Shown here piece by piece: positions 10,195 through 34,880 of a stretch of 37,808 nucleotides of DNA. The position numbers and the translations under genes were made by a program. This DNA is from Candidatus Zixiibacteriota bacterium (lineage in GTDB: Bacteria; Zixibacteria; MSB-5A5; GN15; FEB-12), in the NCBI GenBank assembly GCA_021163775.1, contig JAGGTI010000130.1, positions 1 through 37,808 on the forward strand. Reading direction: 5' to 3'. How positions within the stretch are numbered: the first letter of the stretch is position 1; every line of letters starts with the position of its first letter. The notes under the pieces are model-generated. The model was not told where the DNA came from. It did no database searches and saw only the letters and a list, made by a program, of their open reading frames with translations.

Positions 10195-11898
10195 TTGGAC
10201 AAGAAATCTATCATTATAGTAGTGGCACTGGCTGTTGTCGTCATATTCTACTGGCCGATCATGACCAAGCTTGGGTTTGTTGATGAACCCCAACCGCCGG
10301 CCCAGACGCAACCCCAGGACAACCAGACTACCCAGCTACCTGAGCAGGTATCTACTCCGATAGTAGCCGATCAGCCGACCGACTATCAGGTGGTCGAATT
10401 GGCTCAGAACGCAGGCTCCGAAATCGACACTGCCAAAGTCGACACCTTGGTGATCGAAACCGGCAAGTACACTGTGAAAATGTCATCCCTTGGTGGTGGT
10501 CCGGTCTCTATCGAAATGAAAGACTACACCTACCGTGACGGCCGTCCAATTCAGATGTTGCCGAACCTGACCAGGGTTACGCCCGAGGTGACTTTTCAGG
10601 GTGGAACTTTCACGACTTCTCACGAACATTTTGCCTGCGATCGACCGGCGGGTGTTTATGACGCTACCCGGGAACCATTGGAAGTAGTTTACACCCACAT
10701 CGGTGAAGCCGGTGGCACTATTACTCGGACGTATACATTTTATCCTGATCGTCATTCGTTCGATTTTAAGTTCGATGTCGATAACCCATCGGTGTTTGGT
10801 TTCGATCGCGAATATAAGCTGATGTGGAACACTCCGCTGGAACCAACCGAACCGAATATCAAGGATGACTGGAAGGCTATGCAGGCGGCGGCAGTTATGG
10901 CCGGTTCGCGCGAGGCGCTTGATGATTTCGATGATGGTAAGCTCCGGCAGAGTTTGACCGGACGTACTGCCTGGGCCGGAGTGCGGTCCAAGTATTTCTC
11001 GGCGGTGCTTATCCCCCGCTCTCGTGAAGCCGATGGGGCGATTGCCTTGGGAAGTGAAGACGATATCAGTACTGCTGATGGTCTCATGGAAGAACGGCGC
11101 ATTACTGCCGGTTTGGAAATGATGTTTGCCACGGTTAACCCGATCAGCGACAGCTTCACGGTTTTTGTCGGCCCGCTCGACTACATGGAGATGCGGGAGT
11201 ACGATGTAGCCCTCGAGGATATGCTGGATATCGGCACCAGTCTCATAGGCAAACTGATCTATCCGTTCGCTTTTGCCGTCTTGTGGCTCCTGCCTAAATT
11301 GTACAGCTTTTTACCCAACTACGGTTTGGTCATTATCCTGTTTGCGTTTATGGTGAAGATCGTGACCCTGCCGCTCTCGATGAAACAGTTCAAGTCGATG
11401 CAGGCGATGAAAGAGTTACAGCCGCGTATTGACGATCTCAAGAAGCGGCACAAGAAAGATCCCCAGAAGCTGAATAAGGAAACGATGAAGCTCTATAAAG
11501 ATCAGGGGGTCAGTCCACTTTCCGGGTGTCTGCCGATGTTGCCCCAGATGCCTCTGTTCTTTGCCATGTTCTCAGTTTTCAGGTCGACTATTTTGCTTCG
11601 GGACGCACCTTTCTTCTGGTTTATTGATGATCTCTCGCGTGGTGCCACCGGACTGACCGACCCGTATATAATCCTGGTGCTACTGATGATAGCTTCGCAA
11701 TTCATATCACAGAAAATTACCATGCCGGCCAACCAGCAGAATAAAATGCTTGGCTACATGATGCCGCTTTTCATGGGTTTCATTTTCTATAGCTTCGCCG
11801 CCGGGTTAGTATTATATTGGACGGCGTTCTCCATAATGGCGATGCTTGATTATGCTCTATTCAAGCGACCGAAAAATCCCGAGGTCAAAACCGTCTGA
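10195..11898 (+). CDS. yidC: YidC, inner-membrane protein insertase
   Basis: The 567-aa insertase has an N-terminal TM segment (IIIVVALAVVVIFYWP), a large periplasmic beta domain typical of diderms (roughly 60-350), and a C-terminal five-TM Oxa1-type core. The core contains KQFKSMQAMKELQPRIDDLKKRHKKDPQKLNKE, the coiled C1 hairpin, then GCLPMLPQMPLFFAMFSV. The start is TTG at 10195, 10-12 nt after AAGGAT; an upstream ATG is followed at once by a stop. It follows yidD. The usual next gene jag is absent and mnmE comes directly. Confidence 0.95.
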   Translation: MDKKSIIIVVALAVVVIFYWPIMTKLGFVDEPQPPAQTQPQDNQTTQLPEQVSTPIVADQPTDYQVVELAQNAGSEIDTAKVDTLVIETGKYTVKMSSLGGGPVSIEMKDYTYRDGRPIQMLPNLTRVTPEVTFQGGTFTTSHEHFACDRPAGVYDATREPLEVVYTHIGEAGGTITRTYTFYPDRHSFDFKFDVDNPSVFGFDREYKLMWNTPLEPTEPNIKDDWKAMQAAAVMAGSREALDDFDDGKLRQSLTGRTAWAGVRSKYFSAVLIPRSREADGAIALGSEDDISTADGLMEERRITAGLEMMFATVNPISDSFTVFVGPLDYMEMREYDVALEDMLDIGTSLIGKLIYPFAFAVLWLLPKLYSFLPNYGLVIILFAFMVKIVTLPLSMKQFKSMQAMKELQPRIDDLKKRHKKDPQKLNKETMKLYKDQGVSPLSGCLPMLPQMPLFFAMFSVFRSTILLRDAPFFWFIDDLSRGATGLTDPYIILVLLMIASQFISQKITMPANQQNKMLGYMMPLFMGFIFYSFAAGLVLYWTAFSIMAMLDYALFKRPKNPEVKTV

Positions 11899-11903
11899 CA
11901 CTA

Positions 11904-13300
11904 ATGATGCCCGATAAAGCTAAAAAAAAAAGACAACAACTCCGGTTGACTCCGATACTATCGCCGCCGTCATAACACCTGCCGGTCAGGGTGGTATCGG
12001 GGCGATCCGGATTGCCGGTCCCCGCTCGCAGGAGATACTTGAGCGGCTCTTTCGCCCCACCCGTTCCTCCAAACTAAAACCGTTTCTGATGCGCCACGGT
12101 CATGTTGTGTCCGGTAGCGGTAAAGTGATCGATGAAACTCTTGCGGTGTTTATGCCGGCGGGTCGATCTTACACCGGACTCGATCAGGCCGAGATCTACT
12201 GTCACGGCGGGCACCAGGTGGTGCGGACAATTTTGGATCTGATAATCAAATCGGGAGCACGTCCGGCCGAACCGGGCGAGTTTACCAAACTGGCTTTTCT
12301 GAGTGGTCGGATCGACCTGTCCAAAGCTGAAGCGGTTGGTGAGCTTATTGCCGCCTCAACGGAAGCATCGTATGAGGCCAGCCGGGAGCATCTGGTCGGT
12401 GAGTATTCTGAATATGTCGGGTCACTTCGGGAGCGGTTGGTTTCGATTCTGGCCGAGATTGAGGCCTCAATTGATTTTGCCGACGATGAAGCCGATACGA
12501 TAGATCCGAGGCATCTGAACAAGACCCTTGACGAGATAACCGGCCGAATAGACCAATTGGTCGCTACCTACGAAGGCGGACGGATAATCCGCGAGGGATA
12601 CCGAGTCGCGATCGGGGGTCGCCCCAACGCCGGGAAATCATCGCTGTTCAACGCGCTTCTCAAGCAGGAACGGGCCTTGGTTGACCATGAAGCTGGTACG
12701 ACGCGGGATTACCTGTCTGAGTGGGTCGACCTCGATGGGTACGCGGTCAATCTGATCGATACCGCAGGGGTGCGTGGCGAGGGTAGCCAGGTGGAGAAAG
12801 CGGGGCAGGCCCGATCACGTGAGTTAGTTGCGAAAGCTGATCTGGTGCTCTGGTTGGCAGACGTCACTATGCCAGATTGGCAGGACCGCTCGGCGGCTGA
12901 TATTAGAGATCTGGAATATTGCGATATATTGTTAGTAGGTAATAAGATAGATCTTGTAGCCAATTCTGGCCTTGTCTGTCCTGATGAGACCTGTCTAATA
13001 TCTTGTTTGACCAGAGATGGATTAAATAAGCTAAGAGGTCTGATTTTCGAGTATATTAATGATAGCACCCGGAATATGATTTCAGGGCAGATAGTAACCT
13101 CGGCTCGGCACCGAAACTGTCTTGAGCTGGCTGGTCGAGCGCTTGAGCAGACAAAGTTGGCTGTGAACAACGGGGAGTCATCCGAGGTTCTGGCGTTTGA
13201 AATTCGGCGAGCAGTTGAAGCGTTAGCCGAGATAACCGGTCAAATATATACTGAGGATATTCTCGAAGAGATATTTTCTCGATTCTGTATTGGGAAATGA
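11904..13300 (+). CDS. mnmE: MnmE, tRNA U34-modifying GTPase; apparent 5' frameshift at an A10 run
   Basis: MnmE with MnmG installs the cmnm5 group on tRNA wobble U34. The G domain has GRPNAGKSSLFN, DTAGVR and NKID, and the protein ends in the essential CIGK. The track starts at 12089, cutting off the conserved folate-binding start. That start is present upstream: DTIAAVITPAGQGGIGAIRI begins at about 11954 in the same frame, but no ATG/GTG/TTG precedes it before a TAA at 11921. The tandem ATGs at 11904/11907 lie in a frame one base off, separated by ten A residues (11922-11931). One extra A would restore MMPDKAKKKKT... and a 465-aa protein of normal size. This could be a homopolymer assembly error, a real mutation, or slippage-dependent expression. 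Function is otherwise certain. Confidence 0.9.
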
Positions 13301-13327: not shown

Positions 13328-13343
13328 GATTTCACGTGAAACA
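13328..13343. promoter_or_regulatory. parS: Near-consensus parS, ParB-binding site
   Basis: The palindrome matches the bacterial parS consensus TGTTTCACGTGAAACA at 14 of 16 positions; only the two 5'-most bases differ. It sits in the mnmE-mnmG gap and covers the GTG that the ORF track uses as the mnmG start. A one-mismatch DnaA-box-like 9-mer, AGTGGATAA, lies about 30 bp upstream. Confidence 0.85.
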
Positions 13344-13362
13344 ATCGATATCGCATATTGAT

Positions 13363-15231
13363 ATGCAAGATTTTGATGTAATAGTGGTTGGAGGTGGTCA
13401 CGCTGGTGTGGAGGCCGCTCTGGCAGTGGCACGAATGGGGAAGCGCGCCGGGCTGGTTAGTATGGATGCCGGTAAGCTGGCGCTCATGTCGTGTAATCCG
13501 GCTATTGGTGGGATCGGTAAGTCTCAGTTAGTTAAAGAAATAGACGCCCTGGGCGGGTTGATGGGCGAGGCTATCGACGCCACCGGAATTCAGTTCCGGA
13601 GATTGAACCTTTCACGTGGCCCGGCGGTCTGGTCGACCAGGGTGCAGGCCGATCGGATCGGGTACAATCAATATGTGGTTGACCGCCTTGAACATCACCA
13701 AAACATTGAGGTGGTGGAAGGGACCGTTGTTGCGGTCTCGGTCGAGTCCGGTAAGGCTTGTGGTGTAGTTCTGGAAAACGGGGAACCTCTTAGTTCAAAA
13801 GCGGTTGTGATCGCCAGTGGGACATTCCTTGGTGGACTTATCCACATCGGTGAAAAACAAATCAGGGCTGGTCGGATGGGGGAGAAGGCCGCGACCGAGC
13901 TTTCGGAGAATCTCTCAGGGCTGGGTTTCGAGGTCGGCCGTCTCAAGACCGGAACACCCCCACGTCTCGATGGAGACAGTATCGACTGGTCGAAGTGCGA
14001 GAGACAGGAAGGCGAGGAGCCGCTTCCATTATTCTCGTATCGTTCGACCCGTGAACTGTTTAAGCAGACGCCCTGTCACCTTACTCGCACTACGGAGAAG
14101 ACTCGGGCGAAGGTATCAGCCAATTTTGAGAAATCACCTATTTTCTCCGGGCAGATAAAATCAACCGGCCCAAGGTATTGCCCATCGATTGAGGACAAAT
14201 TTTACCGATTCAAAGATAAGCCATCGCACCAGATCTTCCTGGAGCCGGAAGGAAACGGCACCAACGAGATCTACCCTAATGGTTTTGCCACCGCTTTACC
14301 TGAAGATGTCCAGAGGGAAGCTATTCATACGGTTACAGGCTTGGAGGAGGCGGTTATCACCCAGCCGGGGTATGCAATTGAATACGACTATTGTCCTGCT
14401 TACCAAGTAGATAGGTCGCTTGAGACGCGGGTCGTCAAACAGCTCTATTTTGCTGGCCAGATCAATGGCACTTCAGGGTATGAAGAAGCCGCCGCGCTGG
14501 GACTTATGGCTGGAGTCAACGCGGTGCTGGCAATCGAGGGCGAACCGGCGTTCAGGCTTGATCGCTCGCAGGCGTATATCGGGGTTATGATCGATGACCT
14601 AACGACCCGCTCGACCACGGAGCCTTACCGAATGTTTACATCGCGGGCAGAATATCGCCTGGCGCTCCGTGAAGACAACGCGCGGGACCGGTTAGCCGGT
14701 TATGCTCATCAATATGGTCTTATTTCTCAGTCTGAGTTTGAGATATTCCAGGATATGATTCTGAATACCGAGAACGAAGTGAAGAAACTTCGGTCGACCA
14801 GGGTTAAGGTTTCCCGGTTGACTGATTTGAAGGTTAAGATTACGAAAAAAGACAAAGTCTCGCTCGCCGATATCCTCAAGCAACCGGGGATTGTTCTCGC
14901 CGATATCTTGCCGTTACTTAATGAGTTCGATAGTATGTTCTCCGAGGATCGTGAAGTTTTGAGCCGAGCGGCGATTCAGATCCGATACCAGGGGTATATT
15001 GATAAGCAGGAACGGGAGATACAGAAGTTTCGGAAACAGGAAGCGGTCTTGATTCCGTCAGACTTTTCATATACTGATATATTAGGGCTGAAAACCGAGG
15101 CTCGGGAGAAGCTTTCCCGGTTCCGACCCGGAACTCTTGGACAAGCTACCCGGATAGAAGGTGTCACGGCGGGTGATTTGGCGGTTCTCGCGGTCAATCT
15201 CAAGCGTCACAACGCCAAATCAGGACAATAG
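13363..15231 (+). CDS. mnmG: MnmG (GidA), FAD-dependent tRNA U34 modification
   Basis: MnmG is the FAD/NADH partner of MnmE in cmnm5U34 formation. Diagnostic motifs are the N-terminal dinucleotide fold DVIVVGGGHAGVEAALA, the CNPAIGGIGKSQLVKEIDALGG block, RGPAVWSTRVQADR, LKTGTPPRL and the C-terminal LKTEAREKLSRFRP followed by QATRIEGVTAGD. Length is about 622 aa, as expected. The ORF track begins at GTG 13336, inside a parS site. The ATG at 13363 puts the first beta strand at the N terminus as usual and is preferred, although no Shine-Dalgarno is evident. rsmG follows after 3 nt. Confidence 0.96.
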   Translation: MQDFDVIVVGGGHAGVEAALAVARMGKRAGLVSMDAGKLALMSCNPAIGGIGKSQLVKEIDALGGLMGEAIDATGIQFRRLNLSRGPAVWSTRVQADRIGYNQYVVDRLEHHQNIEVVEGTVVAVSVESGKACGVVLENGEPLSSKAVVIASGTFLGGLIHIGEKQIRAGRMGEKAATELSENLSGLGFEVGRLKTGTPPRLDGDSIDWSKCERQEGEEPLPLFSYRSTRELFKQTPCHLTRTTEKTRAKVSANFEKSPIFSGQIKSTGPRYCPSIEDKFYRFKDKPSHQIFLEPEGNGTNEIYPNGFATALPEDVQREAIHTVTGLEEAVITQPGYAIEYDYCPAYQVDRSLETRVVKQLYFAGQINGTSGYEEAAALGLMAGVNAVLAIEGEPAFRLDRSQAYIGVMIDDLTTRSTTEPYRMFTSRAEYRLALREDNARDRLAGYAHQYGLISQSEFEIFQDMILNTENEVKKLRSTRVKVSRLTDLKVKITKKDKVSLADILKQPGIVLADILPLLNEFDSMFSEDREVLSRAAIQIRYQGYIDKQEREIQKFRKQEAVLIPSDFSYTDILGLKTEAREKLSRFRPGTLGQATRIEGVTAGDLAVLAVNLKRHNAKSGQ

Positions 15232-23669: not shown

Positions 23670-25193
23670 CTATTTCAGCAGCACCGCTTTGACGGTCGCG
23701 GTTTGGTTTTCAACTGTTGCCCGGAAAAGATAGACACCCGACGCAAACTTAACCGCATCCCAGGTCAAGTCAAATTCACCGGCCGATGTGGTGGCGTTAT
23801 ATATAGTTGCTACCTGTTGCCCGAGTGGATTGAAGACTTCGACCTTCAGATGACCTTTCTCATTCAGTGCAACTGGTAGCGTCACAGTCGGGTTGAACGG
23901 GTTCGGGTACGGTTGCCCGAGCGTGAATGTAGCGGGTAGCAACTTATTGTCAGAGTCTACTTCAACATCAGTCACTACGGCGAAGCCGTGATACGACACG
24001 GTATCGTGATTGACTATGACGAGATACGGTTCGTCCTCACCATAAGGGTAGTCCCAGAACTTCATGCCTTCCGGGAGTGGATCGTACCTGCGAAGTAGCG
24101 AACCATCGGTAGCACTAAAACGCATGAGAGTATCCCCCGCCATAGAAAAGAACTGATCTGGGAACGTTGGATGGGTGATGAAGTTGGTGAACGAATGGTC
24201 GACCGTCGAATGGCTCCACAACTCCGTCACAGAATCATTTGGATGGAGGTGATAGGCTACTATGCCCCGATCGCTAGGAAGTGCCGGCGGCTCAATCACA
24301 CAACCTGAAACGCTGTAGGAGTAGGAGCATATTAGAGTCAGAGGCGGAGAGCTGTCAATTAGTGACCCAAGGACGAGTTGCGACTCGCTCCAAGTTCCAC
24401 CTTCGTCGTAGCAATAAGGGGCATGCGCCCCAGCGAGGAAGGTAAGTGTGCCGGAAGTGTCCAACCCTACGATACCTTGACTCGTGCGTGAGTAGTCGGG
24501 GCCAATGTTGGACCAAACTTCTGTCAATTTGTGTGTTAGGCACGAAGGGTACCCGGTTCGCTCAGGAAGAAGCCAAATGCCATCGGTATGAATATCCAGA
24601 TGCTTCAACGTTGAGTTCGGATACGAATGGAAGATTTCAGTACTGCCGGTGGTCTCACACCACATGTATGGGATACGATAATACGAGGTCTCGGAAGACA
24701 GAAATAGTTCATCGTACCCATCGTGGTCAATATCAACTGCCTCTAACATGACCAGATTATTCCCGGTACAACTTTCCATGCTAGATAGGTAAAACACCTG
24801 ATCCTGCAGACGCCGATGTACAAGAGTGCTATCATAGCAGACGACCTTAGTGTCTGATTTGTACCCCCTATGGAAGTAACCAATCAATACGTCGGCTACC
24901 GAGTCACGGTTGACATCGGCGAGTTCGATTTCGTATTCGGGATAGTCTGAGTCGAGTGTATCGGTGAAGAGAATATCGTTGGGTAGCGAGAACAACACGA
25001 CGGTATGGCCGTCACACGCCAGCACTTCAGCGAAATTGTCGCCGTCGATATCGGCAAGTTCGATCTTCTGAATTGCACTATCCAGACCGGGCACGGTGAA
25101 CGAGAGATACGGTGATAACTCCGGCTCAGCCTGACAGGTGGCGGCCAGAAGAACAAACACCCCTATCGCTACTAGTTTGACAATCTACTTCAT
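23670..25193 (-). CDS. Secreted beta-propeller/FG-GAP-like protein with T9SS-type tail; amber at codon 3
   Basis: The mature part has several FG-GAP/VCBS-like calcium repeats: KIELADIDGDNFAEVLACDG, ELADVNRDSVADVLIGY and AVDIDHDGYDELFLSS, suggesting a propeller. The C-terminal sorting tail contains QPYPNPFNPTVTLPV, GQQVATIY and SGVYLFRATVENQTA. The best start is ATG at 25193: AAGGTGAT precedes it and MK-IVKLVAIGVFVLLAATCQA would be a perfect signal peptide, but codon 3 is TAG. The ORF track therefore begins at GTG 25160 in the middle of the signal peptide. Either this is a fresh nonsense mutation, a sequencing error, or translation uses a weak GTG with a shortened signal. Other genes here end in TAG, so reassignment is not expected. 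Confidence 0.8.
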
Positions 25194-25288
25194 ACGCACC
25201 GGCATCACCTTCAGCAAACTTCGGTTTACTGCCTTACGTAATCAAGATGCCATGATCGCCTAATTTGTCAATGACAAAATCATTTGTT

Positions 25289-25331
25289 GCGTCGGGTCCT
25301 TCGCCGACAAAGTCGGCGTGTGACCTGACGC
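25289..25331 (-). repeat. RAYT-linked palindrome, copy at 25.3 kb
   Basis: On the minus strand: GTCAGGTC, ACAC, stem GCCGACTTTGTCGGC, GAAGGACCCGAC. Its inner stem equals that of the copy at 22933, 2.3 kb away. It lies 14 bp past the stop of the GNAT gene, on whose strand it is oriented. Confidence 0.7.
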
Positions 25332-25344
25332 CCACCGAATGCGT

Positions 25345-25806
25345 CTAATACCTAAACCGCAGTTTTGGGCCGGAGTGGGCGAAACCTTCGCGAAGATAAA
25401 ACGCGACCGCTCGTTCCCACTTCTCCCCCAACGGCGCGTTCACTTCGATTCGTCGCCAGCCACACTGGCGGCCGTACTCTTTGGCGGTCTCGATCAAAAC
25501 CTTGCCGATTTTTTTGTCGCGGTGTTCCGGAAGGATATATAGTTCGTTGATCACACCGTATGAGCCATCAGCGTAAATCGCGAACGATTCGACCAGCGTA
25601 ATAATGCCGAGCGTCGTCTTTTCGTCTTCGTCGAGCGCCACGAACGCCGTGAACCGATCCTGGTTAGCTTCCCAACCCTGTTTGATCTTCTCCACATTAA
25701 GAGCTACCGGTATATTTGCATCTTCGCGGAGTTCTTCAAGCAGGCGCGTTACCAGGTCAAGCACCAGGTCGGCCTGCTCAATATCAAGTTGTTCAACCGT
25801 TATCAT
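25345..25806 (-). CDS. GNAT-family N-acetyltransferase
   Basis: This 153-aa protein has the GNAT core: ELYILPEHRDKKIGKVLIETAKEYGRQCGW is the acetyl-CoA binding motif A with the R-x-x-(G/K)-x-G/A loop in altered form (RDKKIG). The C-terminal AVAFYLREGF is the usual late motif. The acceptor substrate is unknown. Its start overlaps the upstream alpha/beta-hydrolase-like gene by 4 nt (ATGA), so both are translated together. Confidence 0.87.
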   Translation of the reverse strand: MITVEQLDIEQADLVLDLVTRLLEELREDANIPVALNVEKIKQGWEANQDRFTAFVALDEDEKTTLGIITLVESFAIYADGSYGVINELYILPEHRDKKIGKVLIETAKEYGRQCGWRRIEVNAPLGEKWERAVAFYLREGFAHSGPKLRFRY

Positions 25807-26771
25807 AAGGTGGCGGTATCGTCAGTGATCGCTTCCGGTTCAATGTTGAGTGTGCCAATGAACATCATGATCTGGTTATTGATCGCGGTCGGATCCTGTT
25901 CAGATTTTGCGGTTTCAATCAGACCCGCACCGGATAGTTCGGCAAGAGCGGCGAACTCTTCGGTTTCGCGGATATCTTCTTTGGCCAGTATCAACGTGTG
26001 GCACTCGACCCCTTCAAGATTCTCCAGGGTGATATACTCAGGCGCGTAACCAGAGCGGAGTTCGTACCAGAACTTGAGAAGCGTATGTGGAAATGGAATC
26101 CAGTACATATCGTGCTCCGCCATCAGCATATCAAGCCAGCGATCCGACGTGATATATGGTTCGATCGCCACCACTTTGTCGAGTCGGGGTTCATCGGTTG
26201 CAACAAATATCGCGGCATCGGCGCCGAGTGCCTGACCGACCACCACAAACGGGTGATGAATCTGGTCGCGCATATTAAGATAGCTGATCAACTCGCCCAA
26301 GTCGGCCGCTTCGTATTCGCCGTTGCTATGGTAAGTTCCGGTCGAAAGGCCACTGGCGCGCTGATCGTAGAGACAGACCGTAAAACCGGAGTCGAGCAGA
26401 GCCTGAGCAAGTGGGATCATCGAAGTCCGATCAAATCGCTCATCGTGGACCAGAATCGCGGTACCATTAATAGTCACCAGCTGGTCGGGATTGGTCGAAT
26501 CGGGGGCCGGGGTCAGGTAAAGACAGGCCAGGTTGGTGAGGCCATCAGAGTCGATCCGGAAAGTATCGACCACGGCCCCGAGTTCCAGAAACGCGGTCGG
26601 GTCGTTGGCAGGCAACGAATCGGCGTTGAATTCTTCGATATCCGGGCGGGCAAGGATAGCCTTGGCACGGTTGAGCGGGTAGATGATAAACACTAAAGCT
26701 AAGATCCCGACTACCAGCAGGAAGACTACGATTTGGAGAATTTCTTTGACTGTTTGCGACATTTTGGCCAT
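25803..26771 (-). CDS. Membrane-anchored alpha/beta-hydrolase fold protein without catalytic Ser
   Basis: 322 aa with one N-terminal TM helix (about 12-31) and an alpha/beta-hydrolase body behind it. Conserved fold features are TAILVHDERFDRTSMIPLAQALLDSGFTVCLYDQRASGLS and a strand-helix around VVVGQALGADAA. The nucleophile elbow GxSxG reads GQALG, so Ser is replaced by Ala181, and I see no His near the C terminus to act as base. It is probably not a hydrolase, but a binding or structural protein. The ATG at 26771 follows GGAGTTAG on the minus strand. It is co-translated with the GNAT gene. Confidence 0.75.
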   Translation of the reverse strand: MAKMSQTVKEILQIVVFLLVVGILALVFIIYPLNRAKAILARPDIEEFNADSLPANDPTAFLELGAVVDTFRIDSDGLTNLACLYLTPAPDSTNPDQLVTINGTAILVHDERFDRTSMIPLAQALLDSGFTVCLYDQRASGLSTGTYHSNGEYEAADLGELISYLNMRDQIHHPFVVVGQALGADAAIFVATDEPRLDKVVAIEPYITSDRWLDMLMAEHDMYWIPFPHTLLKFWYELRSGYAPEYITLENLEGVECHTLILAKEDIRETEEFAALAELSGAGLIETAKSEQDPTAINNQIMMFIGTLNIEPEAITDDTATL

Positions 26772-26870
26772 CTGGCTAACTCCTGATTATTTAAGCGGTT
26801 ATGATAGCAGTCTGTGATTGATAGTCAATAATAAAAAATATGTCTATATCTGGCGGGTAATAGGATTTCA

Positions 26871-26905
26871 GTGCTCCCATCGATTTACACGTGAACGGGG
26901 AGCAC
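26871..26905. repeat. GTGCTCCC/GGGAGCAC hairpin
   Basis: Perfect 8-bp arms enclose a 19-nt loop. Two more GCTCCC blocks follow within 35 bp (26923, 26934). It lies upstream of the hydrolase-like gene and could be an operator or a further repeat. I do not recognise it. Confidence 0.4.
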
Positions 26906-27000
26906 GGCATGAGATGATTTATGCTCCCAATGTGCTCCCGATGTTTGAGGAAATGCTGAGCAACTATAGGGGCTTGTTGAAAAAGTCCTCTTGTGTAGTT

Positions 27001-27048
27001 GCGGCAGGTCCTTCGAATTCTCCTGGGCGAATACGTGAGACCTGCCGC
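27001..27048 (-). repeat. RAYT-linked palindrome inside the MITE-like element
   Basis: On the minus strand GCGGCAGGTCTCAC, an inner region and GAAGGACCTGCCGC. The perfect 10-bp outer arms and the TCAC/GAAGG asymmetric loop mark it as the same family as 22756. Confidence 0.65.
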
Positions 27049-27070
27049 TATTGTCTGACATGCACTTACG

Positions 27071-27112
27071 TGTCAGGCCACAATCCCGTCTTGACGGGAT
27101 AAGGACCCGACA
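27071..27112 (+). repeat. RAYT-linked palindrome, second copy inside the MITE-like element
   Basis: TGTCAGGC, CACA, inner stem ATCCCGTC/GACGGGAT with TT loop, AAGGA, CCCGACA. Outer arms are imperfect. Its orientation is opposite to the copy at 27001. Confidence 0.6.
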
Positions 27113-27252
27113 CAACTGTGAATAGGGTTTATCAACAAGCCCCTAGGGGGCAATATAAGTAAAGTTTAGATCGAAATCGGATCCGTAAACCGAGGCAGGA
27201 CAGGCGCCAATAAGAAAGTACGGTCTGAGTTCAGATTTTATGAATAAACATG

Positions 27253-27281
27253 TTGACAATTTTGAAAGTCGGCCTTATATT
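27253..27281 (+). promoter_or_regulatory. Strong sigma70-type promoter of the first surface-protein gene
   Basis: TTGACA, 17-bp spacer, TATATT. The predicted transcript starts near 27288, about 350 nt before the ATG at 27641. Confidence 0.75.
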
Positions 27282-27640
27282 CCGCTCGGATGATAGGTGA
27301 CAGTTCCACAAATAATAACCCTGAATGGTTCCGCATTAGCGCACCATTAAAGTACCAACAGCTTTCCGATCCGAAATATAAAATATTGAAGTCTTGTGTA
27401 CTTCACTCTCGATGTGGCTGTGGGGGCCGCTGAGGGGGTTACGAGCAGGTTACTTTCATAAGTACTACTGTTAAAGAAACTATATAAAGCCAACAAGGAC
27501 GTTAGCGATGTTGAAGTCGGCGAATTGGCCGATAATACGCGTAACGCCCCGGTGCGAGTTTCTGTCCAGCAGTAGATGAAAACTAACCAAGTAGAGTCTT
27601 GGGCATCGATGGCAACCCTTTTTTTAGGAGGTAGCTTGTA
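27282..27640 (+). promoter_or_regulatory. Long 5' leader of the 389-aa secreted protein gene
   Basis: About 350 nt without a convincing gene. It contains GTGGCT and CTGAGGGGG (27414-27438), shared with the next leader, and ends TTTTTTTAGGAGG, 9 nt before the ATG. A 37-codon open frame at 27462-27575 looks protein-like but has no start. No known riboswitch family is recognised. Confidence 0.45.
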
Positions 27641-28810
27641 ATGCGGTTCAGCTCCAATGAGATGAGCACCAGTCCGAAGACATCCTTATTATTGCTTGTT
27701 TTGATCTTGCTTCTTTGTTCTGCTCCGGGATTGCAAGCGGACGATGAGATGTTTGATCGCCTCAGGGTCACTGTGGGCGATACTACTGGAACAGCAGGAG
27801 AGGAAAATTCGGCAGTATCAGTTTTTCTTACCAACCCTTCGGATGACATCTTTGCCTTCACGATTCATATTGCGCTCGACCGCAATGACATCGCCAATTT
27901 CCAGACACAACTCGACACGATTGAGGTGTTTACGTACTGGGCTTGCAACAACTGGGTCGGCGAAGTCTGCACTGACTCGGTCGGCGTGGATGATCCCTTG
28001 ACCGAGCCGTGGGACTTTGAGCATATTGATACGGTTGAAGCGTATGCCGGCGTTTTTGATACTGTTGGAACTTTGATCTCTGGATGGGACTATGTCCAGT
28101 CGCGGGCGGTTTCAACTGGTGATCTCGGGTTGGATATTCTGTTGACAGCTATCTCCGACACCGACTCTATCCCCGGCTACGTGCCGCCGCTCTCACCTCA
28201 GGGTGGAGGGGTGTTGTTTAGAGTACTGGCTGATATTTTTCCAATTCCGCCCGAGCAGGAAGACCGCACCGCCACCGTTCGGATCGATGTGGGTTTCAAG
28301 CGCTGGTTTGGTTTCTCTACTCCGGAGGGTGAGTCGATTGGGTGGATAACCGTGCAGGTTCCTGACACCAACTATTATATGTGTACCAGTCCAGAACCTC
28401 CGCCGGGTACCGGTTGTTATGAATGGACCAAAGTATATTCGTGGGAGTGCCCTGCGGAAGGGTGTGACTCCGTAGGTATCCAGATGGTTGATATTCCGGT
28501 GCTGGATTCAACCCAGGTCAGCCTGTTTGACGGGTCTATCACGGTGTTAAACACCTGCTGTATTGGCAGGGTGGGTGATACCAACAACTCCGGCGAGGAT
28601 GAGCCGACGATTGGTGATGTCAGCACAATTATTGACGTGCTTTTTATTAACAATAACTGGGACATAATTGACTGCCTGGCGGAAACCGATATTAACCAGT
28701 CGGGTGGGGTCAGCCCTACTCCGAATGACATAACGATTGGTGATGTGTCGATTCTAATAGATTACTTGTTTATTACGGGATCATCTTTGGGACTGCCTGA
28801 TTGTCTATAG
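27641..28810 (+). CDS. Secreted protein with cohesin-like body and C-terminal dockerin-like module
   Basis: 389 aa with a signal peptide (TSLLLLVLILLLCSAPGLQA). A beta-rich region begins DRLRVTVGDTTGTAGEENSAVSVFLTNPSDDIFAFTIHIALD, cohesin-like in style. The C terminus is a duplicated dockerin-like module, GDTNNSGEDEPTIGDVSTIIDVLF and TDINQSGG...DITIGDVSILIDYLF, with Asp/Asn positions that would bind Ca2+. It ends there: the NYPNPFNP sorting tail of its neighbours is missing. Nine or more Cys residues suggest disulfides outside the cytoplasm. Perfect AGGAGG precedes the ATG. A role as a docking partner of the longer proteins is inferred only. Confidence 0.72.
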   Translation: MRFSSNEMSTSPKTSLLLLVLILLLCSAPGLQADDEMFDRLRVTVGDTTGTAGEENSAVSVFLTNPSDDIFAFTIHIALDRNDIANFQTQLDTIEVFTYWACNNWVGEVCTDSVGVDDPLTEPWDFEHIDTVEAYAGVFDTVGTLISGWDYVQSRAVSTGDLGLDILLTAISDTDSIPGYVPPLSPQGGGVLFRVLADIFPIPPEQEDRTATVRIDVGFKRWFGFSTPEGESIGWITVQVPDTNYYMCTSPEPPPGTGCYEWTKVYSWECPAEGCDSVGIQMVDIPVLDSTQVSLFDGSITVLNTCCIGRVGDTNNSGEDEPTIGDVSTIIDVLFINNNWDIIDCLAETDINQSGGVSPTPNDITIGDVSILIDYLFITGSSLGLPDCL

Positions 28811-28820
28811 CGAGGCAGTC
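28791..28820 (+). terminator. Hairpin across the stop codon, possible weak terminator
   Basis: GACTGCCT/AGGCAGTC, 8 perfect pairs, spans the stop of the 389-aa gene. No U tract follows, so at most it stabilises the 3' end or acts with a factor. Confidence 0.35.
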
Positions 28821-29200
28821 GGATGATTCTAACCTTGATTTGGGTACCAACCTGTTGCGAGAATTAAACAGTTCTGTGAAAAATCTTAATACTGCGCTAA
28901 TAGCGCCACGATACATTTGGATAGAAAAAAGAAGCGCCCGGCCTTTGGGCAGGCTTGGCAATGACTATAGAAGAAAAGAAAGACGGAAGTAAAGGAGGAC
29001 ATCTAAAAGAGGATATTGCACGCGCTCTAATTTTAGAGTTTAACTGTCGTTCTTTTTTGGCGACCATTGGATAGCGAAATTGTCTGGCTCTACGATTTCG
29101 ATGATCCGGGTGGCTAACCCTGAGGGGGGCTAGAGAGAAGATAGTTAAGTATTTGACAACTTATTGTTGTAATGAATGTGTTTTTTTAGGAGAGCAAATA
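28821..29200 (+). promoter_or_regulatory. Long structured 5' leader of the 882-aa surface protein
   Basis: A gene-free gap of 380 bp. It holds a hairpin AAGCGCCC...GGGC-GCTT (28932-28956), CTCTAA-TT-TTAGAG (29025-29038), and a stem CTCTA...TAGAG (29088-29135) enclosing GTGGCT and CTGAGGGGGG, which the preceding leader also has. It ends TTTTTTTAGGAGAG 6-8 nt before the ATG. No convincing promoter is seen, so it may be transcribed from 27253 or from a non-sigma70 promoter. Confidence 0.45.
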
Positions 29201-31846
29201 ATGAGGAAACTATTATTTTTCCTTGCGTTCGCCTTGTTGATGACAGGTAGCGCGTTCTCTCAGAACGGTGTCATCTCTGTTGACAATGTTACGAACGATT
29301 ATAACCTCGGAACTCAGTTGCGAGCAGGTTTTCCGCACGTGATTGGTGTCAGATATGATTTGACTGGTGCCATGCCTGCGTCTTCTGCCAACTGGACCGG
29401 TTCCAACGGGTACGAACTGTACTCGCCGGACGGTGCCGACTGGGGTTCCATGACCGCGACTTTTGGTCCTCTGGTCAACGCTCTGCCGGGCTCAGTGGTT
29501 AAGTATGCTTACCACTACCAGCTCGTTGGTACGACTTGGGACCGCACCACGAACAATGGTGACGATCCGTGTCCGGGCGCCAGTGTTATTGACCGGGCCG
29601 GTTTCTACCTGGCTACTGTCGACTTCACCGGTGCTGGCTACCTGCCTGGCGCCAGCGATATTGCGCTGAACTTCGCGTTTAGCACTCGCTTTGAAGATGA
29701 CGGCCTCACCATGTGTTTTGACTCACTCAGCGCCATCACGGCGTGGGAGTGGGCCGCTGGTTCGGCGGGCGATTTCCCGATTTGGGATAATGGCCTTGGT
29801 GCTTCCGAGCCCCGTTGCTGGGAAATCTACAATGTTCCGAACCAGCCGCCGGTCTGGGATGATGACCCGGCTGAGGACGCTGTGAATTTCAATCACTGCG
29901 CCCAGGGTTCCTACCAGCTTTCCGCGACCGACCCCGATCTTACGGGTACGGTTACGTACAGCTTTGACCCCGTCTTTGATGACGGCCTCCACGGCGAAGT
30001 GACACCGGAAGGTGCCTGGACCTGGTCCGGCGCGACGGTGCCACAGAGTGGTGCGGTCGATATTGAATTCCGGGCGTTTGATACCCAGGATTATACATTA
30101 ACCAACTTCACCCTGCACGTTACCTTAACCAACGAAGCTCCGCAATTTGACGTTTGCCCGAGTGGTTTGGCGACTGTCAGTGCTGGAACCCCGCGTTCCC
30201 AGACCCTGGTCTTCTCAGATCCGGACGTCTGTGATGCCCCAGCTATCGTATTGGGTGCCGTGACCAATTTCAACCCTGCCAATGTCAATATTGTTGGTGG
30301 TGTTGTAACCTTCACCCCTGATGTTCCCGCGCGTGACGTGGCTATGGAGATTATTGTCTCCGATGGTGAGCTGGAAGATGTATGCGTGCTGAACTGGCAC
30401 GTAATCGAAGGTTCTAAGTATCAGGTTGAAATCGATAAGGTTGAAGGCGCGTTGCAGGGTCATTTCACTGACCTCGACATCATCCTTCACTCGGCTGACG
30501 CTGAGGACGGTCTTGGTGGTTTTGACCTGTTGGTAGCGTACGACGCTTCCGCGTTGGGCTTCCAGCTCGCTATAGAGGGTGACCTCTATAACGACGGTTT
30601 CTATAACTGGGAATACTTCACCTATCGTTTCGGTCCTTACGGCAACTGTGGTAGTGCCTGCCCGAGCGGCATGCTTCGTGTTGTCGGCCTGGCCGAGATC
30701 AACAATGGTGTCGCGAATGCTGAATGTGTTTATGACGCCACTGCCAAGCCGGTTCTGGCTTCCCTGCGCTTCCTGGTCACCAATGACCGGAGCTTGGAAT
30801 GTCAGTATGTGCCGGTTCGTTTCTTCTGGTACGACTGCACCGACAATATTCTGTCGAGCTGTGACGGTTCGGTGGCTTACCTGTCGAAGAAGGTCTACGA
30901 CTATGTAGACTTCAACTTCCCGTTCCAGGATGGCGAAATGTCTAATGGCACCGTTGGGTTCCCGACTTACCAGGGTGCCCAGGATACGTGTGTGTTTATT
31001 GATGAAGTAAATGGCAAATATGCCATACGCGACATTGACTTCCAGAATGGTGGAATCGACATCGTCTGTGCTGACTCGATTGATGCTCGTGGCGATATCA
31101 ACTTGAACGGTCTGCCTTATGAAATCGCAGATGCCGTCATGTTCACCAACTACTTCATCAATGGCCTGAACGCCTTTACTGGCAACATGGAAGGTTCCAT
31201 TGCGGCTTCCGATTGTAACGCTGACGGTATCGCGCTGTCCGTGGCTGACCTGGTTTATCTTATCAGGGTAGTCATCGGCGATGCCGCGCCTTACGATAAG
31301 GCCGCCCCAGTTGCCGCTAACATCACTTTTGGTAACGAACGTTTCAACGTTGACGTTGAGATGGGCGCCGCCCATATCGTGATGGAAGGCAACGTTGTGC
31401 CGACTCTGTTGGCCGATAACATGGAAATGCTCTATGCCAGCAACGGTCAGACCACTAGTATTCTGGTCTACTCGACCGAAGCTAACCAGAGCTTCCGCGG
31501 TGACTTCCTCGAAGTCGATGGTAATGTTGTCAGCACCGAATTCGCTACCTTCACGGGTGCGACCGTTGCCGCCAAGGTAATGCCTTCAAGCTTTGAAGTT
31601 GCCCAGAACTACCCGAACCCGTTCAACCCGACAACCACCTTCAAGTTCACTGTTCCTAATGGCGGTGACTGGAAGCTTGGCGTCTACAACATTACCGGCC
31701 AGCTCGTCGAGAGCTTCTCCGGTGTGTCTGAGACCGGTTACGAAACGGTCGTTTGGGACGCTTCTAACCTGTCGTCCGGTATCTATTTCTATAGAGTATC
31801 TGCCGACAACCAGAGCGTGACCAAGAAGGCTGTCCTGCTTAAGTAA
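29201..31846 (+). CDS. Large secreted surface protein, cohesin-like + dockerin-like + T9SS-type tail
   Basis: 882 aa. Signal peptide MRKLLFFLAFALLMTGSAFSQ. N-terminal unknown domain (about 20-210). Ig/cadherin-like repeats from about 211 (QPPVWDDDPAEDAVNFNHCAQG). Cohesin-like domain at about 405-600 (YQVEIDKVEGALQGHFTDLDIIL). Dockerin-like module near 631 (GDINLNGLPYEIADAVMFTNYFI...SDCNADGIALSVADLVYLIRV). Sorting tail from about 800 (QNYPNPFNPTTTFKF...SGIYFYRVSADNQ). The ORF track start at 29153 is too early; ATG 29201 has AGGAGAG and begins the signal peptide. C-ending codons such as AAC, TTC and ACC seem more frequent than in its neighbours, as in strongly expressed genes. It may be a main surface-layer component. 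Confidence 0.78.
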   Translation: MRKLLFFLAFALLMTGSAFSQNGVISVDNVTNDYNLGTQLRAGFPHVIGVRYDLTGAMPASSANWTGSNGYELYSPDGADWGSMTATFGPLVNALPGSVVKYAYHYQLVGTTWDRTTNNGDDPCPGASVIDRAGFYLATVDFTGAGYLPGASDIALNFAFSTRFEDDGLTMCFDSLSAITAWEWAAGSAGDFPIWDNGLGASEPRCWEIYNVPNQPPVWDDDPAEDAVNFNHCAQGSYQLSATDPDLTGTVTYSFDPVFDDGLHGEVTPEGAWTWSGATVPQSGAVDIEFRAFDTQDYTLTNFTLHVTLTNEAPQFDVCPSGLATVSAGTPRSQTLVFSDPDVCDAPAIVLGAVTNFNPANVNIVGGVVTFTPDVPARDVAMEIIVSDGELEDVCVLNWHVIEGSKYQVEIDKVEGALQGHFTDLDIILHSADAEDGLGGFDLLVAYDASALGFQLAIEGDLYNDGFYNWEYFTYRFGPYGNCGSACPSGMLRVVGLAEINNGVANAECVYDATAKPVLASLRFLVTNDRSLECQYVPVRFFWYDCTDNILSSCDGSVAYLSKKVYDYVDFNFPFQDGEMSNGTVGFPTYQGAQDTCVFIDEVNGKYAIRDIDFQNGGIDIVCADSIDARGDINLNGLPYEIADAVMFTNYFINGLNAFTGNMEGSIAASDCNADGIALSVADLVYLIRVVIGDAAPYDKAAPVAANITFGNERFNVDVEMGAAHIVMEGNVVPTLLADNMEMLYASNGQTTSILVYSTEANQSFRGDFLEVDGNVVSTEFATFTGATVAAKVMPSSFEVAQNYPNPFNPTTTFKFTVPNGGDWKLGVYNITGQLVESFSGVSETGYETVVWDASNLSSGIYFYRVSADNQSVTKKAVLLK

Positions 31847-31872
31847 TGTAGGATTTGTCTTTGATTTTGGAT

Positions 31873-31899
31873 CCCCGGATAGGTTAACCCTTTCCGGGG
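31873..31899 (+). terminator. Hairpin after the 882-aa gene
   Basis: CCCCGGA...TCCGGGG, 7 perfect pairs with an interior TAGGTTAACCCTT that also folds partly. It lies 27 bp after the stop and is followed by TTCTAAA rather than a long U tract. Probably the end of this transcript. Confidence 0.5.
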
Positions 31900-32021
31900 G
31901 TTCTAAACCGCAAGACAGGAGAACTTATATTAGCAATTTGTTCACGAAATAAAGTTGGATAGAGTTAGAGAAAAGGTTTAGCTGAAATGGCCTAAGTTGT
32001 TAGTGAAACTATAGTTTTCGC

Positions 32022-32050
32022 GTGACAAACGGGTCTTTTTTATATATAAT
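32022..32050 (+). promoter_or_regulatory. Sigma70-type promoter of the 811-aa surface protein
   Basis: GTGACA, 17-bp spacer, TATAAT. Predicted start near 32057, giving a leader of about 340 nt, similar in length to that of the 389-aa gene. The gap 31900-32395 otherwise holds only the hairpins at 32341-32380. Confidence 0.75.
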
Positions 32051-32340
32051 GTTATGATCTTGTCGAAGTGTACAAACCTTTTGTTTGGATGTTGTCGTAC
32101 TGCGTACATTTGCATATGCCTGCGGAAGAATGACAGACAACCTCACTATGTTACTCGCCGCCCGAAAGAGGAGTATTCTTTAGTCTAACTGATATTTACA
32201 AGTTGGCTTGGCAGTAGAGAACATAAGTTCTTATTACTTCTACTCTTAAACGGATTTGCTAAGAGCCATAGACTCTGAGTAGAACAGGAAGCGATTCGTC
32301 ACGGAAAGGCGAAAGAACTTCCCGGAGTGAACAGGTTCCG

Positions 32341-32380
32341 GTCTGAGAATTGCTCAGACAAGGTATGGCAAAATGCCATA
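32341..32380 (+). promoter_or_regulatory. Tandem perfect hairpins directly upstream of the 811-aa gene
   Basis: GTCTGAG-AATTG-CTCAGAC (32341-32359) and TATGGCA-AAA-TGCCATA (32364-32380) lie in the leader, 16 bp before the ATG at 32396. No Shine-Dalgarno is evident between them and the start. They may control translation or mRNA stability. Confidence 0.55.
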
Positions 32381-32395
32381 TTAAGACGGCAAGTT

Positions 32396-34831
32396 ATGAG
32401 TAAGACGTACTTTACAAGATTTTTCGGCATATTGGCCACGCTTTTGGTGGCTGGCGTCACCGTTGGAACGACGCCGACAGAGGCGAGGTACGCCATATAC
32501 GCAGACTCGGTTGAATCGGGTGCTGGTTCAGACGTGTCGGTCAGATTCTACCTTGCCAATGAGATGGCGTTGACATCGTTAAGTGTACCAATCAGTTACG
32601 ACCCATCGCTGGTGACACTCAAGTCGATCAGTTTTACTGATTCGAGAGCGCAACATATTGCAAATAAGATGATTACGCCGTCAGATATTGATGTAGCTGA
32701 CGGTCATTTCATGGTAGCGATATTCCAATGGATGGAAGATCCTATCGAAGCTGGTGATGGACTGTTGTTTACGGCGATATTTGGCCTTAATCCGGAGGCG
32801 GAAGTTGGCCAGTCCACTCTACTGGATACGCTTTTCTACCCGCCCGCCGGAGTTTTGGAAGTTGTCCGAGCCGATACGTCGGGGGGGATTCAGCCCGATT
32901 TTGGGCCGGGGATGATAATAATTGGTGAAAATAACCGTACCCCGGTGTTTGCTACGCTTCCTGACCAGTATGTTTTGGAGGGCGATAGTCTCGATTTAAC
33001 TATTATAGTGTCAGATCCTGATGAGGATTTGCTGACTTTGGCGATTACGACCAAACCGACCGGGGCAACTTTTGTGGATAACGGTGATGGAACGGCTCGG
33101 TTCGTTTGGGTGCCGGATTATGTTGGCCCGAATTCGGCCGATGGTTCCCCGCTGAGTTTGAGTTTCTGGGCGAGTGATGGCGATTTGTCATCTCAGATGG
33201 ACTTGAATATTTACGTGCTCAACCGGAACCGCAAGCCGTCGATAATGGCTCCTACGGAAGCTATTGTTGAGGCTGGCGAAACGATGAGTTTGTCGGTGTC
33301 GGCATTCGATCCCGATTTTGAGACGATCACCTGGAGCTGGTCGGGTCTTCCCGAAGGTGCCACGTTTGATGGTGATAATCCAGGTTTGCTAAGCTGGACA
33401 TCGGAAGTGACTGACACTGGTTCATTCGTTGTGGCATTTGTGGCCACCGATCCACAGGGATTAGCGGACACGCTTGCGATAACCACTCAGGTTCGGGCGG
33501 TTGCATTATTTACGCTGGCGATTGATTCTGTTGAGGCGTTCCCGAATGAGGATGTTGAGTTCAAGATCACGCTTGATAACAAGTTGCCGGTAGCGGGTTT
33601 CAACATTTTGTTCAATCACGACCCGATTGCGCTTGGTTTCCTGTCGTTGACTAATGCCGAGACCCGTACCGAGGCGTTTGAGTATTTCACGGTGCGCACC
33701 ACAGAAAACGGTATAGCCGGCAATGTTCGTATCATTGGAATTGGAGATATGGGTGGTGGTACTCCGGGGTTGGAAGCAGGCGATGGACCAATAGCTTCCG
33801 TGCGGGTGCATACTACTGGTGATCTGGCTTTTGCCGGTATGAGTATTCCGTTGACGTTCCAGTTCCTCGATGCTCCGATCAATGATGACAACAGTTTGAC
33901 CGACAGTATCGGCACCAGAATCGAACAGGCCGATATCGTTTATCAGACTGGCAGTGTGAAGATTCACGATATAGGCCAGATCCGGATTGGTGACATAAAT
34001 CTTAACGGCATTGCGGCTGAGATTGGCGATGTGATTTACTTTACAAATTTCTTTATCAACCCGTCGCTATATAAGTTCAATGCACTACAGTACGCCAACT
34101 CTGATGTCAACCGGGATTACATCGCCGCTACGGTGAGTGACCTGGTGGCGCTTATCAACTGGGTGGTGGGTGGTAACACCTACAGCAAGATTTCTGATGG
34201 TGGAGAGTTGACCGCATCGGTTGAGATTGAGACTTATTCCAATCAGGCCCTGTTCAGCTATGAATCTTCGGTGGCCGTTGGGGCGGCTTACTTTGTGATC
34301 AAGAGCGATCGGGAGGTCACCGAGGGGATGATCACCAGTCGATGTGACAATATGGCTATGAATTATCATCAGGATGGTGACCGAGTGAAGGTGCTGTTGT
34401 ATAGCCTTGACGGCGAAGTGATGCCGTCCGGTCGAACCGAATTATTTGAGATAAGTGGTGGCGTTGATTTTGAGATCAGCCATGTTGAATTAGGTAGCTC
34501 GGGTGGTCAGCAGATAGAAGTAGCGTTGGCTTCAGCTGGTGCTCCTCTGCCGATCGGTTTTGCGCTGATGCAGAACTACCCTAACCCATTCAATCCTGAG
34601 ACGAACCTTGAATTCGCTCTGCCATATGCCACGCATGTTACTCTGACGGTTTACAATGTGTTGGGCCAGGCGGTGGTGACTTTGGTGAACGATGAGCTTC
34701 CGGCCGGAACCCACGGCATCCAGTGGCGTGGTACTGACCAGCAGGGTCAGGCGGTGGCGTCAGGAGTTTACTTGTACCGTCTACAGGCGGGCACCGAAAC
34801 TATGACACGAAAGATGATGCTCTTGAAGTAG
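32396..34831 (+). CDS. Secreted surface protein, two cohesin-like and two Ig-like domains, dockerin-like module, T9SS-type tail
   Basis: 811 aa from ATG 32396 (MSKTYFTRFFGILATLLVAGVTVG...); the upstream extension in the track is not credible. Cohesin-like domain 1 at about 32-180 (YAIYADSVESGAGSDVSVRFYLAN). Cadherin/Ig-like domains at about 181-280 (LPDQYVLEGDSLDLTIIVSD) and 280-372. Cohesin-like domain 2 at about 372-525 (LAIDSVEAFPNEDVEFKITL). Dockerin-like module at about 530-600 (GDINLNGIAAEIGDVIYFTNFFI, SDVNRDYIAATVSDLVALINW). Sorting tail from about 725 (QNYPNPFNPETNLEF, GVYLYRLQAGTE). It is probably translocated across the outer membrane by a type IX-like system and tethered. The function of the repeats is unknown. 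Confidence 0.78.
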   Translation: MSKTYFTRFFGILATLLVAGVTVGTTPTEARYAIYADSVESGAGSDVSVRFYLANEMALTSLSVPISYDPSLVTLKSISFTDSRAQHIANKMITPSDIDVADGHFMVAIFQWMEDPIEAGDGLLFTAIFGLNPEAEVGQSTLLDTLFYPPAGVLEVVRADTSGGIQPDFGPGMIIIGENNRTPVFATLPDQYVLEGDSLDLTIIVSDPDEDLLTLAITTKPTGATFVDNGDGTARFVWVPDYVGPNSADGSPLSLSFWASDGDLSSQMDLNIYVLNRNRKPSIMAPTEAIVEAGETMSLSVSAFDPDFETITWSWSGLPEGATFDGDNPGLLSWTSEVTDTGSFVVAFVATDPQGLADTLAITTQVRAVALFTLAIDSVEAFPNEDVEFKITLDNKLPVAGFNILFNHDPIALGFLSLTNAETRTEAFEYFTVRTTENGIAGNVRIIGIGDMGGGTPGLEAGDGPIASVRVHTTGDLAFAGMSIPLTFQFLDAPINDDNSLTDSIGTRIEQADIVYQTGSVKIHDIGQIRIGDINLNGIAAEIGDVIYFTNFFINPSLYKFNALQYANSDVNRDYIAATVSDLVALINWVVGGNTYSKISDGGELTASVEIETYSNQALFSYESSVAVGAAYFVIKSDREVTEGMITSRCDNMAMNYHQDGDRVKVLLYSLDGEVMPSGRTELFEISGGVDFEISHVELGSSGGQQIEVALASAGAPLPIGFALMQNYPNPFNPETNLEFALPYATHVTLTVYNVLGQAVVTLVNDELPAGTHGIQWRGTDQQGQAVASGVYLYRLQAGTETMTRKMMLLK

Positions 34832-34880
34832 AGCATTGATATACATTGATAATGATGTTGATTACCATATTGAGGTCGCG

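Follow-up and report, generated by a model that had tools for sequence, protein, structure and literature searches.

How is MnmE made from a gene whose nearest start codons lie one base outside its reading frame? The question arises in a Candidatus Zixiibacteriota bacterium, in a 37,808 nt stretch of DNA that was analysed as a whole (hereafter, the window) and that is the entire contig C17 of a draft genome, G000 (2.37 Mb, 130 contigs, 77% complete). A first-pass annotation, made from the sequence alone, had claimed that the mnmE N terminus is intact but sits one base off its start codons at a run of ten As (A10), and that one added A would give a normal 465-aa MnmE. The window sequence and profile searches bear out the first claim, and the second held as well. 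As explanations, the annotation had offered either an assembly error or slippage on the transcript.

The mnmE start in the window

The features around the junction, by position in the window, are:
10195..11898, + strand: yidC, the upstream gene, whose end lies 5 nt from the ATG pair (name not from a profile search)
11904..11909, + strand: tandem ATG starts, which need +1 nt for the MnmE frame; the same relation is found in 24 other genomes
11904..11975, + strand: 23-codon short frame, given by standard decoding of unslipped mRNA (read from the sequence)
11922..11931, + strand: A10, the proposed slippage site, where the start frame gives way to that of MnmE; the orthologous position carries A9 or A10 in 25 genomes
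11924..13300, + strand: mnmE coding frame of 458 codons, or 465 aa once the start and one extra A are included; TIGR00450, PF10396, PF01926, PF12631
11954..12088, + strand: conserved MnmE N-terminal segment (DTIAAVITP...), 5′ of the sole canonical in-frame start; supported by codon-position differences
12089..12091, + strand: first canonical in-frame start, rejected as the true start because it loses 44 TrmE_N positions
13336..15231, + strand: downstream gene mnmG, the partner of MnmE, in a normal frame (name not from a profile search)

After the first of these genes (10195..11898), which we take to be yidC from general knowledge of its sequence and neighborhood, the order is ATG ATG, then CCC GAT AAA GCT, then A10 (11922–11931). 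The tandem ATGs, 18 and 15 nt before the run, are the nearest start codons on its 5′ side, and the pair (11904/11907) is one base off the MnmE frame, with A10 as the junction. The frame that begins at the ATG pair (MMPDKAKKKRQQLRLTPILSPPS) closes after 23 codons at a stop at 11973–11975. Behind a TAA at 11921–11923, the MnmE frame opens at 11924 and runs for 458 codons to its stop at 13298–13300, without any ATG, GTG, or TTG ahead of 12089. One added A brings the two frames together as a 465-aa MnmE, counted from the first ATG. By profile, this is a full MnmE: TIGR00450 is matched at 343 bits (cut-off 252.6), and the TrmE_N (PF10396), GTPase (PF01926), and helical (PF12631) domains are intact, all of them above curated cut-offs. 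The gene that follows (13336..15231), which we take to be mnmG from general knowledge of its sequence, is the last of the features listed.

Could translation simply begin elsewhere? One possibility is that a non-canonical codon (ATC, ATA, or ACA) or the internal ATG at 12089 serves as the MnmE start, leaving the upstream ATGs and the run irrelevant; a non-canonical in-frame start was an outcome that the first-pass annotation had named as refuting. The lack of a canonical in-frame start before 12089 speaks for this possibility. However, a start at 12089 would remove positions 1–44 of PF10396, or roughly a third of TrmE_N, with the score falling from 119 to 78 bits. Moreover, the segment before 12089 evolves as coding sequence: over the first 42 MnmE codons, the window genome and genome G029 differ 9, 7, and 19 times at codon positions 1, 2, and 3, respectively, as expected if the segment is translated. 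Nor would another start explain why 25 genomes retain a start codon that precedes the run by a few nt and is always in the same frame, or why folC and coaBC have junctions in mid-gene (see below). Conservation and domain loss thus weigh against this alternative, and it can be all but dismissed.

Taken on its own, the window gives no reason to regard A10 as statistically remarkable. It is the only run of nine or more As in the window, but 0.45 A9 matches are expected, and two were reached in 13 of 100 shuffles. The whole window genome (2.37 Mb) has only 10 runs of nine or more As, of which two are A10.

A separate observation concerns the far end of the window (23670–37568), where a YPNPFNP...SGIYFYR-type segment forms the C terminus of several large proteins predicted to be exported. 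We take these ends to be as in type IX-like sorted proteins, from general knowledge and sequence resemblance only.

Recurrence in relatives and in other genes

As run, the comparison with relatives that the first-pass annotation had proposed finds the run together with the same one-base need in 25 genomes, and in-frame starts in relatives that lack the run. MnmE was searched for in all 55 genomes of the window's family, and the start region was examined in 53 of these and in four genomes of the sister family. Shortly before the conserved DTIxA block, 25 genomes that span 14 genera and two families of one order have A9 or A10 (21 genomes from the window's family and four from the sister family). 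The nearest ATG or GTG on the 5′ side of the run needs exactly one extra nt in 25/25 and two in 0/25. The tract is A10 in 19 genomes and A9 in six. Among the remaining 32 mnmE genes, 31 have an in-frame start and one is truncated by a contig end, with no run longer than A7; shifted mnmE genes with runs of A7–A8 number zero. The site is kept while its flanks diverge, the poly-A MnmE proteins being 44%–61% identical to that of the window across the 14 genera. A10 and A9 interchange by substitution at the edge of the run (ggA9 for gA10 in G052–G054), which preserves the off-frame state. An in-frame alternative start is absent from 20 of the 25 genes and possible in five: G007 (ATG in a hairpin), G035 and G036 (TTG), G019 (ATG in the end of yidC), and G015 (GTG). 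Four of the 25 genomes are single contigs (G013, G015, G016, and G017); most of the related genomes are drafts, and each frame state rests on a single assembly. Because the same site recurs in 25 genomes, the mnmE run is far beyond what chance would give. A search of 133 genomes across the phylum with strict run patterns for mnmE, folC, and coaBC found no match outside the order.

Two mnmE genes or groups of genes have peculiarities of their own. In G007 (L012), a perfect hairpin of ~14–15 bp follows the A9 of mnmE and has an in-frame ATG near its loop, and this species may start there. In genus g25 (G043 and G044; L068 and L069), MnmE is found as two same-frame pieces with extra residues between them, which suggests an insertion in the GTPase-helical region.

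Which other genes carry such runs? The survey of runs of nine or more As for shifted genes covered six genomes only (G000, G017, G029, G010, G013, and G015). First, folC of the window genome (contig C22:8455–8463; L044, L209) is split at A9 and needs +1. The same split occurs in about 18 genomes of the family; the strict pattern finds the run in 17, always as exactly A9, and the frame relation is +1 at every locus with a readable upstream frame. The two pieces match FolC model positions 1–87 and 94–398 by profile, and an in-frame stretch of the RRKLSFFE type is found in family members that lack the run. No mnmE or folC gene examined has a long run that is in frame.

Second, coaBC has A10 exactly between its CoaC and CoaB domains, the pieces corresponding to model positions 1–182 and 181–391. 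The run was found in 26 genomes of the family and in one of the sister family, out of 133 phylum genomes searched (loci include L118, L124, L156, and L217–L243). In the 26 genomes with a readable CoaC frame, CoaB is in frame in 14, needs +1 in 11, and needs +2 in one. The run is A9 in genus g15 and A10 otherwise, except for A11 in G005. This arrangement could give CoaC alone besides CoaBC, a possibility inferred from sequence. The A11 of G005 (a draft; L218, C113:4876) is the sole case that needs one A removed or two added, and may be an error or a reverse slip.

Third, a gene for a STAS-domain anti-sigma-antagonist has A10 right after the domain in six genomes, with a long product that extends 97–103 codons beyond the run (L038 at C1:41267 of G000, L127, L133, L110, L154, and L166). 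The extension is in frame in three genomes and needs +1 in three. Fourth, dnaX has A10 in frame, and both other frames stop within 5–17 codons (L120, L139, L149, and L161). This dnaX arrangement is Thermus-like and appears suited to making tau and gamma.

These genes bear directly on the first of the two explanations offered by the annotation, that the true mnmE run is A11 and that A10 is an assembly or sequencing error. In its favor, G000 is a fragmented draft with 77% completeness, and homopolymers are error prone. However, the identical one-base relation is found in 25 genomes, including the four single-contig ones, and both A9 and A10 tracts show the +1 need. In addition, dnaX A10 is in frame over 160–168 codons in G013, G015, and G017, while mnmE A10 in the same genomes is not, and coaBC A10 is found in both frames. 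General homopolymer compression is excluded because dnaX A10 is in frame in several of the same genomes. The relatives and the in-frame dnaX run thus strongly reject the assembly-error option, which is left with almost no room.

The probable source of the extra base

What supplies the missing base? Most likely, A10 is a conserved programmed transcriptional slippage site of the Thermus dnaX type that adds one A; there are no transcript or protein data. In this model, RNA polymerase copying A10 would re-align backwards and add one A in a fraction of mRNAs. In a slipped mRNA, the ATG pair at 11904/11907 would be in frame with mnmE, giving the full-length 465-aa protein. An unslipped mRNA would give only the 23-residue peptide, such that MnmE output would be held to the slippage fraction. 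Part of this account is shown: the starts and MnmE stand in the one-base relation, that relation is conserved in 25 genomes and tied to a homopolymer of 9–10 As, and folC, coaBC, the STAS gene, and dnaX have parallel sites. What is inferred is that transcription rather than the ribosome provides the extra base, and that the site persists because limiting MnmE is useful rather than through a neutral ratchet. The annotation's second option, transcript slippage, is supported by the comparison with relatives, without cDNA evidence and with a ribosomal −1 shift not fully excluded.

The criteria for the slippage class that can be read from sequence are fulfilled: there is a homopolymer of ~8–9 or more A/T at the junction (all 25 mnmE sites and all folC sites), two overlapping frames make up one known protein (MnmE, FolC, and CoaBC), and the site is conserved in orthologues with diverging flanks. 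When transcription inserts bases at A/T runs, it mostly adds just one (PMC5574713). This habit is consistent with the uniform need for +1 and with the near absence of +2 arrangements.

How does the proposed site compare with known ones? Bacterial examples of programmed slippage come from dnaX, insertion sequences, and a small number of secretion genes. Thermus thermophilus dnaX, which slips at A9 (PMC5009743, PMC1088944), likewise has an A9–A10 run in a housekeeping gene and gains extra As, and the dnaX of the present clade shares its in-frame arrangement. However, in Thermus dnaX the long product comes from standard decoding and the short one from slippage, whereas for mnmE and folC the full protein would depend on slippage; unlike Thermus dnaX, mnmE would also slip within its first few codons. 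A split-ORF dnaX with 10 As (Antonov 2013, PMC3711429) likewise has an off-frame A10 and needs recoding for the longer product, in a different gene. The same paper reports for prfB that shifts <50 nt from the start codon escape its survey's detection, and a site of the mnmE type would be missed because it is that close to the start codon. For Shigella mxiE and spa13 and Citrobacter tssM (PMC5009743, PMC1088944, PMC4256274), a base added during transcription likewise restores the functional frame; those cases are secretion-system genes in narrow species groups, whereas here a set of housekeeping genes is involved across two bacterial families. Thus, the kind of mechanism is known, but the literature searched held no description of slippage in mnmE, folC, or coaBC, of the position early in mnmE, or of use in multiple housekeeping genes across two families.

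The alternative is a −1 ribosomal frameshift on A_AAA_AAA, of the E. coli dnaX type, aided by a stem-loop in some species. There is evidence in its favor. An A_AAA_AAA heptamer lies in the start frame of all 25 tracts, which meets the X_XXY_YYZ criterion; the direction of the shift in mnmE is always equivalent to −1; and a strong stem-loop lies a few nt downstream in roughly 10 of the 25 mnmE genes (G007, G016–G018, G020, G030, G052–G054, and G083). Direction and an A-rich heptamer are shared with the E. coli dnaX shift at A_AAA_AAG. Unlike E. coli dnaX, however, mnmE has no conserved stem-loop and a run longer than needed, and two lysine tRNAs are present. A7–A8 would suffice for a ribosome, yet such runs are absent among the shifted mnmE genes. 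The window's own mnmE has no downstream stem-loop (z +1.5), nor do several other shifted mnmE genes, while normal mnmE genes often carry one; as a group, folC (mean z +0.4) and coaBC (0.0) lack it. The criterion of a conserved stimulator is therefore not met for stem-loops, the only structures considered, pseudoknots being outside the test. As a candidate stimulator, the stem-loops were rejected as a consistent part of the site by synonymous-codon shuffles and by the normal mnmE genes. Genes for both tRNA-Lys(UUU) and tRNA-Lys(CUU) are present in G000, G029, G010, G030, G041, and G054, side by side in the first two, so the criterion of a sole UUU tRNA, which is not strictly defining, is not met either. 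Two lysine tRNAs are the Thermus rather than the E. coli condition and have been connected with slippage in Thermus (PMC5009743); the presence of both does not preclude −1 shifts (PMC4066793).

The length of the runs can be expressed as a surplus over the 7-A heptamer, which comes to 69 As in the 25 tracts. At a local A content of 37%, measured after normal mnmE starts, the chance that a 7-A core reaches A9 is 0.30 per lineage, and 5e-8 over 14 genera if these are independent. The genera are only partly independent, and the figure ignores their kinship as well as any preference for A in early codons beyond 37%. Polymerase slippage is preferred to a ribosomal shift because the runs exceed the heptamer, the stimulators are inconsistent, there are two lysine tRNAs, the dnaX, STAS, and coaBC genes look classical, and single-base insertions are usual. 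The ribosomal alternative is unlikely, although it is not fully excluded, and a mixture of polymerase and ribosome remains possible.

A bolder reading would make the ribosome part of a feedback loop. MnmE, together with MnmG, modifies the wobble U34 of tRNA-Lys(UUU), and the modification state of U34 would affect the rate of shifting. If at least part of the shifting happened on ribosomes at the AAA codons via tRNA-Lys(UUU), the level of MnmE would set U34 modification (with MnmG), which would set the shift rate and hence MnmE synthesis, much as prfB does for release factor 2. This autoregulation would require a ribosomal component. It is unsupported and very doubtful, without being excluded.

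Why the site is kept

If slippage supplies the base, why has the frame not been repaired? One answer is selection. Unslipped mnmE and folC mRNAs appear to have no recognizable functional product, such that slippage would act as a fixed brake, an inference from sequence. The other answer is a neutral ratchet, in which slippage is an accident that the cell tolerates, as insect endosymbionts do: the frame is lost, the run then becomes obligatory, and there is no regulatory benefit. This reading concerns the upkeep of the site and overlaps with either mechanism of adding the base. It is a serious one, if on balance the weaker of the two. Poly-A frameshifts corrected by slippage have been accepted in Blochmannia annotation (PMC4389277). 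State changes on the MnmE tree, which has many weak branches, are frequent, with at least about 10 for mnmE and about 15 for coaBC, and two for folC. The coaBC run also occurs in both frames. Buchnera and Blochmannia likewise have frameshifted housekeeping genes that slippage at poly-A is thought to rescue (PMC5009743, PMC4389277). However, those are AT-rich, reduced genomes with many runs, whereas here runs of nine or more As are few and different genera retain the same sites; the present genomes have the size usual for free-living bacteria. Also against the ratchet, a long in-frame run is unseen for mnmE or folC, although the gain of one base is easy. Selection for the off-frame state is argued because mnmE and folC are never in frame and because A9 and A10 differ by substitution rather than by the easy indel. 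The choice between regulation and ratchet is thus undecided; selection is argued for, and the ratchet has to be taken seriously.

The dnaX, STAS, and coaBC genes of the clade present a different picture. As far as can be inferred from their sequences, they resemble classical two-product slippage genes, and it is possible that both products of each are used.

What are the implications? First, mnmE, folC, and coaBC encode enzymes of metabolism or tRNA modification, and their frame-shifted copies would easily be mistaken for pseudogenes or truncated genes. Second, one site with its gains, losses, and changes of frame forms a comparative set for the question of regulation versus neutral ratchet. 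Third, the gene headed by the A-run encodes a protein that tunes how A-ending codons are decoded. Beyond what the first-pass annotation had described for a single gene, the junction belongs to a conserved multi-gene trait of the clade, and it is likely, as inferred from these sequences, that one order of uncultured bacteria uses slippage in at least five genes.
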